From contig NZ_CP096659.1 in NCBI RefSeq assembly GCF_023238205.1, positions 2,497,626 to 2,561,625 of the forward strand: 64,000 bases of DNA. The letters are read 5' to 3'. This stretch comes from Halorussus limi (GTDB lineage: Archaea > Halobacteriota > Halobacteria > Halobacteriales > Haladaptataceae). The position numbers and the translations under genes are program-made. This document shows, one piece after another, positions 40,759 to 57,988 of the stretch. Numbering within the stretch: the stretch's first letter is position 1; every line of letters starts with the position of its first letter. Under the pieces are notes generated by a model, which saw only the letters and a list, made by a program, of their open reading frames with translations, ran no database searches and was not told the origin of the DNA.

Positions 40759-41004
40759 ATGGCACGACGCTCGCGCCGACGATTCCTTCAGGTCTCGCTC
40801 GCCGGACTAGCCACTGCGTTCGCCGGGTGCGGCTTCCCGGGCGGTGGCGGCGAAGGCGGGGAGGGTGGCGAAGGCGGAGAGGGCGGTGAAGGAGGAGGAG
40901 AGGGAGGAGAAGGCGGAGAGGGCGGTGAAGGAGGAGGAGAAGGTGGCGAAGGCGGTGAGGGCGGCGAGGACAGGGCCGCGCCCGAGGTCGGTCCCGATTC
41001 GTAG
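40759..41004 (+). CDS. Tat lipoprotein with Gly-Glu-Gly repeat tail, 81 aa
   Basis: Tat lipoprotein signal: RRSRRRFLQVSLAG followed by lipobox FAGC with Cys24. The mature protein is almost only GGE repeats (about residues 28-70) ending DRAAPEVGPDS. No folded domain remains, so it may be a flexible surface tether or a truncated protein. After the TAG at 41002-41004 the same frame continues with coding-like sequence to a second TAG at 41134-41136. The repeat DNA is a purine-only tract and prone to slippage. The upstream signal is convincing; function unknown. Confidence 0.72.
   Translation: MARRSRRRFLQVSLAGLATAFAGCGFPGGGGEGGEGGEGGEGGEGGGEGGEGGEGGEGGGEGGEGGEGGEDRAAPEVGPDS
40845..40972 (+). repeat. 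GGCGAA/GAG minisatellite, purine-rich tract
   Basis: Imperfect repeats of 6-9 bases, ggcgaa and ggagag types, make a plus strand almost free of pyrimidines apart from repeated ggc and ggt. It encodes the Gly-Glu repeats of the lipoprotein; the other strand would encode Pro-Ser repeats, which is a shadow. Confidence 0.8.
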
Positions 41005-44312: not shown

Positions 44313-47300
44313 ATGTCGAAGCCGACGTTGATCGCCGTCGCCGTCTTTCTCGTCGTGACGACCACTGCTGCCGGAACGATTCCAACGGACGATGCCGCGT
44401 CCGTCACGGACGCCACCCCGGCGAACGACGCCGCGACTCCGAACGAAGCACCGCTCGCAGACGCCGGTCTCGACCAAGACGTAACGAGAGGTGCGACCGT
44501 TCTCCTCGACGCCACGGGGTCGCGCGACTCCGACGGTCGCATCGAACGCTACGAGTGGTCGATTCGGACACCGAACGGCGACACGGTTGCGCCGGACTGC
44601 GCCGACTGTGCCCGAACTCGGTTCACACCGACCGAGACCGGTCGCTATCAGGTCACGATAACCGTCACTGACGACGACGGCGCGACGCGTTCGGACACGC
44701 TCTACGTCGACGTGTCACCCGGGTCGGGCCCCGGCGTCTCGGTCTCCGGACCGACGCGGCCGACCGAGGGTTCTACGGCGACCTACACCGCGAACCTCAC
44801 GGTGGGGGCCGCTGCGCTCGACTATGTCGTCTGGAAGGTCGACGGTACTCGAATCGCCAACCACTCGCTCTCGGCCGAGCAGACGACCGACGCCGTGACG
44901 AAACACTTCCCCACTGCCGAGAATCGCGACGTTACTGCGACGGTCTACGACGCCGACGGACTCACGAACGCGAGTTCCCTCACCGTAGCGGTCCAGTCTG
45001 ATTCGGATTCACCGTCCGAATCGCCGGAATCGAGTACGTCGACCGCCGATGGAAAGTCTCCTCGAATAGCGGGTGACAAGGTCGTGACTGGGTCGAAACC
45101 GCTCCGCGGCCGGTACGACGTTCGACTGGACGCTCCGACTACTGCCGTCGCCGCGGTAGAATGGCGAAGCACCGCCGGGAAAATCTCCGAGGGACGGTCA
45201 CTGACCCGGACGTGGGAACCCGGCGACCACGAACTCTACGCCGTCGTGACTTACGCCGATGGCTCGTCGAACGTCGCCACGTTCGCCGACGGGACGACGA
45301 CTGTCACGGCCGACCCTCGCCCGAACGTGTCGTTCGAATCGCTCGACCGACACGGTTTGATTTCGGGTGCGGTCCGTGGAGTCGACGAGTACGAGAATCT
45401 GAACGGACTCCGCGTCGAAGTGGACGGCGAGACCGTTGCAGTGGCCGGGGGCACCGTACGCGGTCGGTATCGTCACGATTTCGGCCGCCAGCGGACTATG
45501 CGCTTCTCCGACGCCGAGTTCACGCCCGGTGAACCATACACGGTGACCGTCGTTGCCACCGACGAACGGGGCCAGACCGTCCGGGCGAGTCGCGAAATCG
45601 TTCCGGTCGAGAAACCCGAAATCGTCCGGTCAGAGTTCGTCAACGGGCCGGTGGATTCGTATCACGAACGCCTTGATCCTACTCGATATGCGGCACATCA
45701 CGTCTTGGAAATTGATTTGAACGGTGTAGACCCTGAAAAGGTGGATATCCAAATTCAGTCAAGGAATGATCTTGCCAAAAGAACCGACACTAATGGACTT
45801 AGCCGAGTAGAAGAAGGAGGCAAGGAGCACTTAGTACTGCATAGTTTCTGGTTTGGAGAATCACCAGGCCAGTACAGCACAACTGCGTACGTTAACTACT
45901 CAAATACATATGCCCATTGGGAAAGTAAAAGCGTGTCAAATTTCCGAGTTACACCTAGTAAACCAGAACTTCGACTGAATGTCGTCAACGACGGCACAAA
46001 GGAGTATATCACCCGAGAACACGGTATCCTAGTAAATGCGTCCGGTTCGTTCGACCCAGACGGTACGGATCTCAAATATATCTGGAAATACGGGGCAGAA
46101 CCCACGAAACCCGACAATTCCACGGCGAAGTTTCGGTCTTACGAGCGAGCGGCGAGTATCGTCGAAGACGGCTACGACCTGCGAGCGAAGCGGAACTTCG
46201 ACTTCTTGAACTACTTCGTTCCGGGCATTTCCAACACGAGTGTTCTGAGCGAAGAACCGTACTCTGACGAGGAAACGGTTCGGGTCCAAGTAGAAACGGA
46301 ACCGTATCACTTCGCAAAAGAGACGTACTATCAGGACTTCTCGTTGGGGATCTCGGTGTCGAATCCCGCTGCGAGCGTCGTCGAGCGAGAGAAGGTCGAA
46401 GCCGAGCGAAGCGGCCATTCAGACGCGACCGAAGACGCATATCGATACGTCTGGACTATCGAACTCCCCACCGAATCGCTCGCCTCGACTACACCGTCTC
46501 AAACCGTGACGATTTACAACCGAGAGAACGCTCGGAAGAAGACCGAAGCGGAGCTACCGCAAATTCTCGTTTCGGGAAGCAGTAGTAAGTACTGGACTGA
46601 CGTCACTGTACAAAATCTCTCCTATTTGGTCGAGAAGCCTCGCGTAAGAAACGTGACGGTCAACGAGAAGGAGACTCGGGACGAGTATCTCAAGCATGGA
46701 TACGAAGTTCGGCGGACGACCGGAACCACGAAATACATCCTCGAAAAGAAGGTTAAGACGCAGGACGCGAAGTACGGAACCGAAACCAAGCGCTTCGCCA
46801 GTCGGCGCCTCCGGAAGATGTTTCTACAAACGTCGAATGCGTGGTACGCCTCCGGACGTCACGAGACGCAGCGAACCAAGGTCGAACGGTTCTCCCAGTG
46901 GCACCCGTCCTCGGAAATAGAATTCAAGAAGAAGTGGCACGATTCGAGCCTCTGGAACGGTGAGCGGACCGGTGACACCCGCAGAATAAAAGTCGAATCT
47001 GCCGAGTACCGGACGCAGCGCAAGTACCGCTACGAAAACGAGATAGAGAAAACGAAGACGATTCCGGTACGACGGAGCAAAACTCGATGGGTAACGAAAA
47101 CCGCTACACGGACGGTGGAGCGTTGTAGTCTCAGGTTCGGTTGCGAAGAGGTGACCCAGAAGTACACTTACAGGACGAAGGAAACGTACACCTACAGAAC
47201 GACGAAGACTTACACGTACACGATCACGAAGACGGAAACGTACTGGGCGACTTCGAGGCACCAGTCGGACCACGCGTTTACCGGAAAGAAGAGACGAGTA

Positions 47301-47801
47301 AAAATCTCGGATGCGGTCTACGAAACTCGCTTCGAGGTTGAGTACAAGACTCAACGCACGGAGACCGTGACGAAGTACGAGGCGATACGCGACAAGAAAG
47401 TCCAGGATGCGGTCTACGAGTGGCGGGCAAAATCGGAGACGACGGACTACGTACTCGCGAGAAAGCAAGTGTCCCGAAACGGCTGGCGGATGAGGGAGGC
47501 ACAGGCCACTACGTGGGTTCTCGGCAGAGACGATGGCACGACGAAGTTCTGGACGCCGATATACGAAGCCGAAAGCGACGTCGTCAAAACCAAAGCTACC
47601 ATCACCGGGACGCTCACGACCCGATCCTACGATTCCAGGGTTGGCCGTGTCACGGAGGAGAGCGAACTCAAATCAGATACCTTCACGTACGAAGGGGCAA
47701 AAAGCAGACAATATATAATAGGAAAAATAGATAGGGGCGAGGAGAGACTCAATTGGTGTCGAGTGAAAGTCGCATGCTCGAAGTCTAACGGAGGGATCTA
47801 A
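44313..47801 (+). CDS. large secreted PKD-domain surface protein with basic Lys/Arg/Thr/Tyr-rich C-terminal region
   Basis: 1162 residues. A Sec signal (LIAVAVFLVVTTTAAGTI) and Asp/Ala spacer precede a PKD domain at about 45-135 (LLDATGSRDSDGRIERYEW, with a Cys-x2-Cys). Ig-like beta domains follow at about 140-232, 255-335 and 340-430, and another PKD-like segment near 565-605 (LVNASGSFDPDGTDLKYIWK). From about residue 448 the codon use and base composition change. The region about 770-1160 is strongly basic and Tyr/Thr-rich, with the near-repeat KYTYRTKETYTYRTTKTYTY near 950-970. No C-terminal anchor is seen; the partner gene 5 bases downstream encodes a membrane-anchored protein. Such basic sequence is rare in haloarchaea. 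Function unknown; surface binding or assembly is a guess. Confidence 0.85.
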   Translation: MSKPTLIAVAVFLVVTTTAAGTIPTDDAASVTDATPANDAATPNEAPLADAGLDQDVTRGATVLLDATGSRDSDGRIERYEWSIRTPNGDTVAPDCADCARTRFTPTETGRYQVTITVTDDDGATRSDTLYVDVSPGSGPGVSVSGPTRPTEGSTATYTANLTVGAAALDYVVWKVDGTRIANHSLSAEQTTDAVTKHFPTAENRDVTATVYDADGLTNASSLTVAVQSDSDSPSESPESSTSTADGKSPRIAGDKVVTGSKPLRGRYDVRLDAPTTAVAAVEWRSTAGKISEGRSLTRTWEPGDHELYAVVTYADGSSNVATFADGTTTVTADPRPNVSFESLDRHGLISGAVRGVDEYENLNGLRVEVDGETVAVAGGTVRGRYRHDFGRQRTMRFSDAEFTPGEPYTVTVVATDERGQTVRASREIVPVEKPEIVRSEFVNGPVDSYHERLDPTRYAAHHVLEIDLNGVDPEKVDIQIQSRNDLAKRTDTNGLSRVEEGGKEHLVLHSFWFGESPGQYSTTAYVNYSNTYAHWESKSVSNFRVTPSKPELRLNVVNDGTKEYITREHGILVNASGSFDPDGTDLKYIWKYGAEPTKPDNSTAKFRSYERAASIVEDGYDLRAKRNFDFLNYFVPGISNTSVLSEEPYSDEETVRVQVETEPYHFAKETYYQDFSLGISVSNPAASVVEREKVEAERSGHSDATEDAYRYVWTIELPTESLASTTPSQTVTIYNRENARKKTEAELPQILVSGSSSKYWTDVTVQNLSYLVEKPRVRNVTVNEKETRDEYLKHGYEVRRTTGTTKYILEKKVKTQDAKYGTETKRFASRRLRKMFLQTSNAWYASGRHETQRTKVERFSQWHPSSEIEFKKKWHDSSLWNGERTGDTRRIKVESAEYRTQRKYRYENEIEKTKTIPVRRSKTRWVTKTATRTVERCSLRFGCEEVTQKYTYRTKETYTYRTTKTYTYTITKTETYWATSRHQSDHAFTGKKRRVKISDAVYETRFEVEYKTQRTETVTKYEAIRDKKVQDAVYEWRAKSETTDYVLARKQVSRNGWRMREAQATTWVLGRDDGTTKFWTPIYEAESDVVKTKATITGTLTTRSYDSRVGRVTEESELKSDTFTYEGAKSRQYIIGKIDRGEERLNWCRVKVACSKSNGGI

Positions 47802-47806
47802 CGGAC

Positions 47807-48739
47807 ATGACGAACAAAAAATTCTACGTTACCGTCGGAACGCTGTTCGTGGTCTGCGCGTTGTTGTCCACGGGAGTAGTCGCCGCTGGAGTACTGCAAG
47901 ACGAGAGTTCGAACGAGAAGGTCGAAGCGACCGGAGGGACTACGTACACAGTCGCTTTCAACGGGGAGGAGTCGGCTCTCAAAGTTACTGCTAAAAACCC
48001 GACTAAAGAGAAAATCCGACTTGCAGGATATGTAGTCACTGTCGATGGACGACAAGTTCATGAGAAGAATCTCAATCTTTCCGTGGGCGAAGAACGAACG
48101 AAACGAATCAATATTACGGACGGCATAAACGTCAACCAGGATAGCCACACCGTAACCTTCTCCACCTACGGCGGTCACACCGAGTTCAACTTCACTCGCG
48201 AAATAGATTCAGCCGACTCCGGAAAGATTCCAACACCGTACATTGCGGACGTAGAAGTCATTGAGGGCACCATCAACGGTGAACCGTCCGCAGTCGCCGA
48301 GGTGACGCTCGCGAATCCTTCGGAACAACTCTACAGCACGAAGCTCATGGTCCACACGGTCGGGACCGACGGGAGTCTCTACCCCGCTTCGGTCCGTCCG
48401 GGCGACACCCGAACGATCACCGTGGAGTTGCTGGACGACCGCGGTGCCAAGATAGCTGGCGAGGCGCGACTCTACACCGGTAACCTGACGACAGCAGAAG
48501 GCGGTATCGACCAAGTAGAGTTTGCCGGTCGTGCCGGAGCCCAGACTCGAGTCTGGAACGCCTCGTACGAGTCCGTGCGGCCGACGTGGATGCAGAACAA
48601 CTACGAGTATCACAACGACAGCTACGCCCCCGGTCTCGCGACGAAGCTCAGCGGCGGGCACGAAGTGGCTGGAATCCCGGTCGCATATCTCTGTGCCGGG
48701 GTTCTGCTCGGACTGTTTGCGTTTCGGAAATTCCGTTAA
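47807..48739 (+). CDS. membrane-anchored exoprotein, partner of the PKD protein
   Basis: 310 residues with an N-terminal signal or anchor (FYVTVGTLFVVCALLSTGVV), two beta-rich outer domains (about 40-130 and 140-230), a loop rich in Asn/Tyr (MQNNYEYHNDSY) and a C-terminal helix VAYLCAGVLLGLFAFRKF with basic end. The topology places nearly all of it outside the cell, anchored at the C-terminus. It begins 5 bases after the PKD protein and must share its transcript. The first half is Lys/Asn-rich like the preceding gene end, the second returns to normal haloarchaeal composition. Family not recognised. Confidence 0.82.
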   Translation: MTNKKFYVTVGTLFVVCALLSTGVVAAGVLQDESSNEKVEATGGTTYTVAFNGEESALKVTAKNPTKEKIRLAGYVVTVDGRQVHEKNLNLSVGEERTKRINITDGINVNQDSHTVTFSTYGGHTEFNFTREIDSADSGKIPTPYIADVEVIEGTINGEPSAVAEVTLANPSEQLYSTKLMVHTVGTDGSLYPASVRPGDTRTITVELLDDRGAKIAGEARLYTGNLTTAEGGIDQVEFAGRAGAQTRVWNASYESVRPTWMQNNYEYHNDSYAPGLATKLSGGHEVAGIPVAYLCAGVLLGLFAFRKFR

Positions 48740-57209: not shown

Positions 57210-57988
57210 GCGAAAACGACCCCGAACAGGTAGACGAGGAAGGCCTCGACGCCGCGGAATCGGAGATCGCCACCGAACCCGAGGGCGAATCCGGTGCGGA
57301 ACCGTCGGTCGACCCCGACGAGGACGTTGCGGCCGAGGCTGACGACGAAGAAACGACCGAAGACGAGGGACCGAACCTCGACGAGAACGTCATGGAGAAC
57401 CAGGAGGAGGCCGACCTCCTCATCCCCGTCGAGGACTACCTCGGCGCTGGCGTTCACATCGGTACCCAGCAGAAGACCCAGGACATGGAGCGGTTCATCC
57501 ACCGCGTCCGGACCGACGGACTGTACGTCCTCGACGTCTCGAAGACCGACGGCCGCATCCGAACGGCCGCGGACTTCCTCGCCAACTACAGTCCCGAGCA
57601 GATTCTGGTCACGTCCTCGCGCCAGTACGGCCGCTTCCCCGCCGAGAAGTTCGCGGACGCGGTCGGCGCGCGCGCCCGGACCGGCCGATTCATCCCCGGC
57701 ACGCTGACCAACCCCAAGTACGACGGCTACATCGAACCCGACGTGCTGGTCGTGACCGACCCCATCGGTGACGCGCAGGCCGTCAAGGAGGCCATCACGG
57801 TGGGCATCCCGGTCATCGCGATGTGCGACTCCAACAACAACACCAGCAACGTGGACCTCGTGGTCCCGACGAACAACAAGGGCCGCAAGGCGCTGTCGGT
57901 CGTCTACTGGCTACTCGCCAACGAGACGCTCGACCGCCGCGGTGCCGAACCCGCCTACTCGCTCGACGACTTCGAGAGCGAGATTTAA
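57206..57988 (+). CDS. rps2: 30S ribosomal protein S2 (uS2)
   Basis: 260 residues; a long acidic N-terminal extension (about 1-65) typical of halophiles, then [31 protein letters not shown] and [15 protein letters not shown] 57206 overlaps the eno stop. It ends the operon; a hairpin and a T run follow. Confidence 0.96.

Follow-up and report, generated by a model that had tools for sequence, protein, structure and literature searches.

The proteins through which haloarchaea touch, recognize and aggregate with one another are poorly known. The nearest archaeal precedents that we found for the locus described here are the PKD and LamG proteins of nanohaloarchaea and the giant Ig-like SPEARE proteins, PKD/Ig surface proteins for which a role in cell-cell interaction has been proposed (PMC10266531). 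The subject of this report, P1, resembles them in being PKD- or Ig-like, but differs in that it has no detected LamG or ATPase domain and no evident membrane helix, and in that it carries a new ribbon domain and is accompanied by a dedicated partner gene, P2 (compare PMC10266531). A more distant parallel is the ultra-long CDR-H3 of bovine antibodies, in which a stalk with a disulfide-organized tip is borne on an Ig-type protein and stalk length affects folding and stability (PMC8602281). The likeness of stalk and disulfide tip is an analogy only, with no homology, and the tips differ: that of P1 is a single small Cys-x4-5-Cys loop of conserved type at the end of long arms, whereas the bovine knob is diversified (PMC8602281).

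P1 lies in a stretch of 64,000 nucleotides from Halorussus limi (hereafter the window), where it is encoded by an intact open reading frame that begins with ATG and specifies 1162 residues; the P2 gene begins 5 bp 3' of its stop codon. The features of both genes are collected in Table 1.

Table 1. Positions of P1, P2 and their predicted or recognized parts in the window
Feature	Residues	Position in window	Strand	Basis
P1, giant PKD/Ig-like protein (predicted to be exported) with a new C-terminal domain	1-1162	44313..47801	+	
Probable Sec-type signal peptide	1-22	44313..44378	+	hydrophobic N-terminus without twin arginine, by eye
PKD domain	44-134	44442..44714	+	PF18911, 50.9 bits, cut-off 27
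PKD-like stretch	573-611	46029..46145	+	PF21027, 25.7 bits, just under cut-off 27
New C-terminal region, no known family	770-1162	46620..47798	+	
Unit u2	about 815-852	46755..46868	+	weakly related to u3, hhalign E 7.7e-5, probability 62 %
Module b1, W...TGxTRxVxVxxAxYxT	about 875-912	46935..47048	+	duplicate of b2, hhalign E 8e-14
Inserted beta-ribbon, anchors Y899 and W978	predicted strands 904-939, 943-978	47007..47246	+	lock-step arm lengths, covariation, AlphaFold
Tip loop C938-SLRFG-C944, probable disulfide	938-944	47124..47144	+	Cys-x4-5-Cys in 40 homologues
Module b2	about 978-1016	47244..47360	+	duplicate of b1
Unit u3	about 1029-1066	47397..47510	+	weakly related to u2
P2 (310 aa), predicted to be a type I membrane partner whose ectodomain is beta-rich	1-310	47807..48739	+	
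P2 C-terminal membrane helix (predicted), basic end	289-309	48671..48733	+	sequence and a model helix of low to moderate confidence

By its sequence P1 is a PKD-domain protein, a PKD_4 match being present in all 27 of the P1 family members and a PKD-like stretch of the PF21027 type in 24 of them. The first-pass annotation of this DNA, made from the sequence alone, had described the N-terminal half as a stack of PKD/Ig-like domains. This needs correction: in the window protein the PKD domain at residues 44-134 is the only one above its Pfam cut-off, the stretch at 573-611 falls just short, and the remaining Ig-like matches are weak and differ from homologue to homologue. Those P1 homologues that have a complete N-terminus begin with a hydrophobic segment lacking a twin arginine, again as judged by eye, and P1 has no evident membrane anchor or membrane helix of its own. 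The signal peptides of P1 and P2 and the membrane helix of P2 were assigned by eye and from low-confidence models rather than with a dedicated predictor.

The C-terminal third is strikingly different in composition. Residues 1-769 carry a net charge of -41, whereas residues 770-1162 (393 residues) carry a net charge of +33 with a pI of 9.87 and contain 10.4 % Lys, 11.5 % Arg, 14.8 % Thr, 6.4 % Tyr, 3.8 % Asp and 9.7 % Glu. The basic C-terminal third noticed at first pass is thus real, as is the KxYTYRT-like alternation seen near residues 950-970, which can be placed at residues 950-978 (KYTYRTKETYTYRTTKTYTYTITKTETYW). Across the family, the alternation of Thr, Val and Ile in the two arms that make up this stretch and its partner scores 310, against 177.5 +/- 14.9 in shuffled sequences (0/1000 as high). 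Searches of Pfam, NCBIfam and PDB sequences gave no named family for the C-terminal region, in agreement with the earlier impression. The description as a cationic repeat was too simple: what is repeated is an internally duplicated module, b1 and b2, on either side of a single beta-ribbon that is optional, varies in length and bears a Cys pair at the tip, and u2 and u3 form the outer units. A third copy of the u2/u3 unit, u1, was considered and rejected (E 0.025).

The alternating Thr/Tyr/Arg stretch belongs to a long antiparallel beta-hairpin with a Cys-x4-5-Cys tip, and both the geometry and the register of this hairpin are well supported. In most homologues two Cys residues, 4-5 residues apart, lie between the positions corresponding to Y899 and W978, so that each arm can be counted in residues from its anchor and not from alignment gaps. 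Four length classes are found (left/right 39/34, 37/32, 25/20 and 23/18), and the left arm exceeds the right by exactly 5 residues in all 22 Cys-bearing homologues first counted, a rule that also held in all 18 others fetched later (40/40 together). The arms therefore lengthen and shorten in lock-step, and they do so by even numbers, as would be expected if the faces of the strands must be kept. The number of independent events is nevertheless small, since the length classes are inherited within clades and only a handful of length changes were independent: a tree built from the N-terminal part requires 8 changes in all to account for the eight ribbon classes (the four Cys-bearing ones and four that are Cys-less or ribbon-less), two of them for the 23/18 class. 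In four homologues that lack the Cys pair 57 residues separate the anchors, and in a few homologues almost none do.

Covariation leads to the same register. APC-corrected mutual information between the arms peaks at shifts of -2, 0 and +2 from the antiparallel register (0.064, 0.060 and 0.050, against an overall mean of -0.001), and the value for the band, 0.058, compares with 0.008 +/- 0.010 after parity-preserving permutation of columns and was reached in 0/5000 permutations. Charge complementarity between the arms gave no clear register peak. From the window sequence alone, AlphaFold also predicts two strands, with a core pLDDT of 84-91; the single-sequence model of the whole C-terminal region has a mean pLDDT of 42 and is confident only in the hairpin. 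The first-pass expectation of extended beta structure in this part of the protein is thereby supported, and a disulfide between C938 and C944 at the ribbon tip is probable. The register of such a hairpin can thus be derived before any structure is solved by comparing homologues, as lock-step length change and register-specific covariation together predict which residues pair.

The gene pairing of P1 and P2 is also well supported. P2 is predicted to begin with a signal peptide, to have an ectodomain rich in beta structure and to end in a hydrophobic helix with Arg and Lys behind it; its single-sequence AlphaFold model has a mean pLDDT of 38. In a survey of 194 haloarchaeal genomes, the strong matches to P2 fell in the identical 28 genomes that matched the profile of the P1 C-terminal region, the other P2 matches being weak and mostly partial (best 1.7e-6). 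A P2 homologue is present at all the full-length P1 loci read, one of which (L035) ends at a contig edge, and lies downstream of P1 in 22/22 further homologues. With the exception of locus L044, P2 starts between 47 bp before and 56 bp after the P1 stop among the loci read, with a 4-bp overlap in several. A conserved region always paired with the downstream gene had been proposed beforehand as the mark of a defined system, and this is what the survey returned: strict co-occurrence and adjacency, as for a two-component surface system. The pair occurs in at least four neighbourhoods: in some families it separates porAB from Mrp, MoaA and ribosomal genes, in others it separates porAB from aroC, and there are two or more further settings. 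The neighbours thus have the look of housekeeping genes, and the unit is the pair itself. The two proteins may form a physical complex, of which co-occurrence and adjacency are no proof. Two loci depart from the usual arrangement. At L044 (11691-12386, genome G100) P1 is intact and P2 lacks an intact 5' part, possibly through a frameshift or a sequencing error, and at L060 (6929-9995, genome G156) P1 is broken into two frames of 431 and 603 aa and P2 is intact.

Which part of P1 depends on P2 can be narrowed down by comparison among homologues. P2 is kept in five homologues (L055-L057, L127 and L128) whose ribbon is gone or almost gone, so the need for P2 does not lie in the ribbon. The PKD head, approximately residues 37-235, is also found in shorter proteins and in porA-adjacent proteins of some 900 residues, with no P2 match nearby. 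Taken together, these two observations would place the dependence on P2 either in the centre of P1 or in its C-terminal part, the ribbon excluded.

We consider it reasonably probable, if far from certain, that P1 and P2 form a two-gene haloarchaeal system for cell-surface contact, in which P2 anchors P1 and the PKD/Ig stack and ribbon arm project outward. With its probable Sec-type signal peptide, P1 would leave the cell as a giant soluble protein, and P2, with its predicted helix and beta-rich ectodomain, would keep it at the membrane. The PKD/Ig-like stack of P1 is followed by the C-terminal domain, where the ribbon, an insertion that can reach 80 residues, sits between the two W...TGxTRxVxVxxAxYxT modules; this two-stranded antiparallel ribbon, with up to about 36 residues per strand, would measure some 10-12 nm if straight. 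The stack and the ribbon may then contact other copies of P1, a neighbouring cell or the matrix, the ligand and the adhesive role of P1 being the least certain part of this explanation. A bolder version is more doubtful, namely that an exported giant with a disulfide-tipped ribbon of 10-12 nm, adjustable in length over evolution, and a dedicated small membrane anchor make up an undescribed two-gene contact system and a new architecture for prokaryotic surface contacts. The pair is a concrete, deletable candidate for surface contact in several haloarchaeal families.

One alternative is that the ribbon serves self-assembly, the Tyr/Val/Arg faces of neighbouring P1 molecules packing into sheets or fibres of a surface layer or matrix with no foreign ligand. 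The two faces of the ribbon do differ, one being rich in Thr and Glu and the other in Tyr and Val together with Arg and Lys, and the tip is of a conserved type (C-x3-[hydrophobic]-G-C in most homologues) and not hypervariable. However, Arg, Lys and Glu are frequent on both faces, the charged residues extending up to the tip, and some homologues have no ribbon at all; we regard this alternative as unlikely, though it fares best among those considered.

The first-pass annotation had favoured the charge itself, suggesting that a cationic C-terminal region could bind acidic S-layer glycans, DNA or another cell. The window protein, at +33, and its closest relatives, at +8 and +11, would suit such a role. 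Among the 47 homologues long enough to compare (the window protein included), however, the net charge of the C-terminal part runs from -32 to +33 with a mean of -4 and is positive in only 16/47, close relatives of the same genus stand at -32, -11 and -10, and the window protein is the extreme. This spread rules out charge as a conserved feature of the family and makes charge-based binding of acidic glycans or DNA very improbable as the family function, so that the cationic character does not hold up as the working principle. What does recur is a relative difference: the C-terminal part is less acidic than the N-terminal part in 47/47 homologues, and Lys and Arg together average 15.4 % in the former versus 8.6 % in the latter.

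Long amphipathic hairpins with alternating Thr are typical of the pore stems of aerolysin-like and binary-toxin proteins. That the ribbon is such a stem of a beta-barrel pore, with P1 acting on the membranes of other cells, can hardly be credited: the P1 ribbon is likewise a long hairpin with alternating Thr, and pore stems head the Foldseek list of the poor P1 model, but that list is non-significant (no match at E <= 0.001, for a model mostly of low confidence), any long hairpin would attract hits of this kind, a Cys loop forms the tip, the host is a PKD/Ig surface protein, and charged residues on both faces near the tip (charged or amide residues make up 88, 72, 60 and 78 % at left-arm positions 1, 5, 7 and 9, within 10 positions of the tip) leave no lipid-facing strand and argue against a membrane-inserting stem.

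The patchy distribution of the family counts against the surface contact system that we favour. A protein search of the 194 haloarchaeal genomes returned about 26 long P1 homologues at 33-72 % identity, and in a larger draw the C-terminal profile found the family in 50/392 haloarchaeal genomes and 17/86 genera, with one copy each; genome G627, of the same genus as the window, has no P1. Homologues with an intact frame thus exist in other genomes, their absence being one of the observations that the first-pass annotation had named as telling against its proposal. Among the matches listed from 295 genomes drawn across the phylum, none was new from outside Halobacteria, all being already-known haloarchaea. 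A mobile origin of P1 found no support: searches made without the family profile matched neither plasmid or phage records nor viral contigs. A search confined to the open-licence literature found no paper on the P1/P2 family.

In other haloarchaea, proteins of about 900 aa (L061 and L093-L101) adjoin porA in the same place as P1. Their N-terminal part is homologous to that of P1 (392 aligned columns, profile E 2e-49), and their C-terminal part is likewise rich in Thr, Arg, Tyr and Trp, with TG[ER]TR motifs; homology of this type-B C-terminal part to that of P1 is not detectable (best E 0.026, probability 2 %). It seems that at one locus a common PKD head has been joined to differing C-terminal modules. 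Shorter proteins with the PKD head only (L058, L059, L062, L105 and L106) show about 40-50 % identity to P1 residues 37-266 and continue into acidic or low-complexity tails, and in three of them (L058, L059 and L062) a different small lipoprotein-like gene lies directly downstream.

Elsewhere in the window, a short frame resembling a twin-arginine lipoprotein, with Gly/Glu repeats (GGEGGEGG), lies at 40759-41004. On the minus strand at 57543-57632, ARAGORN further reported a tRNA of unassigned type whose anticodon has two bases; it may represent a tRNA with an intron, or else an artefact.
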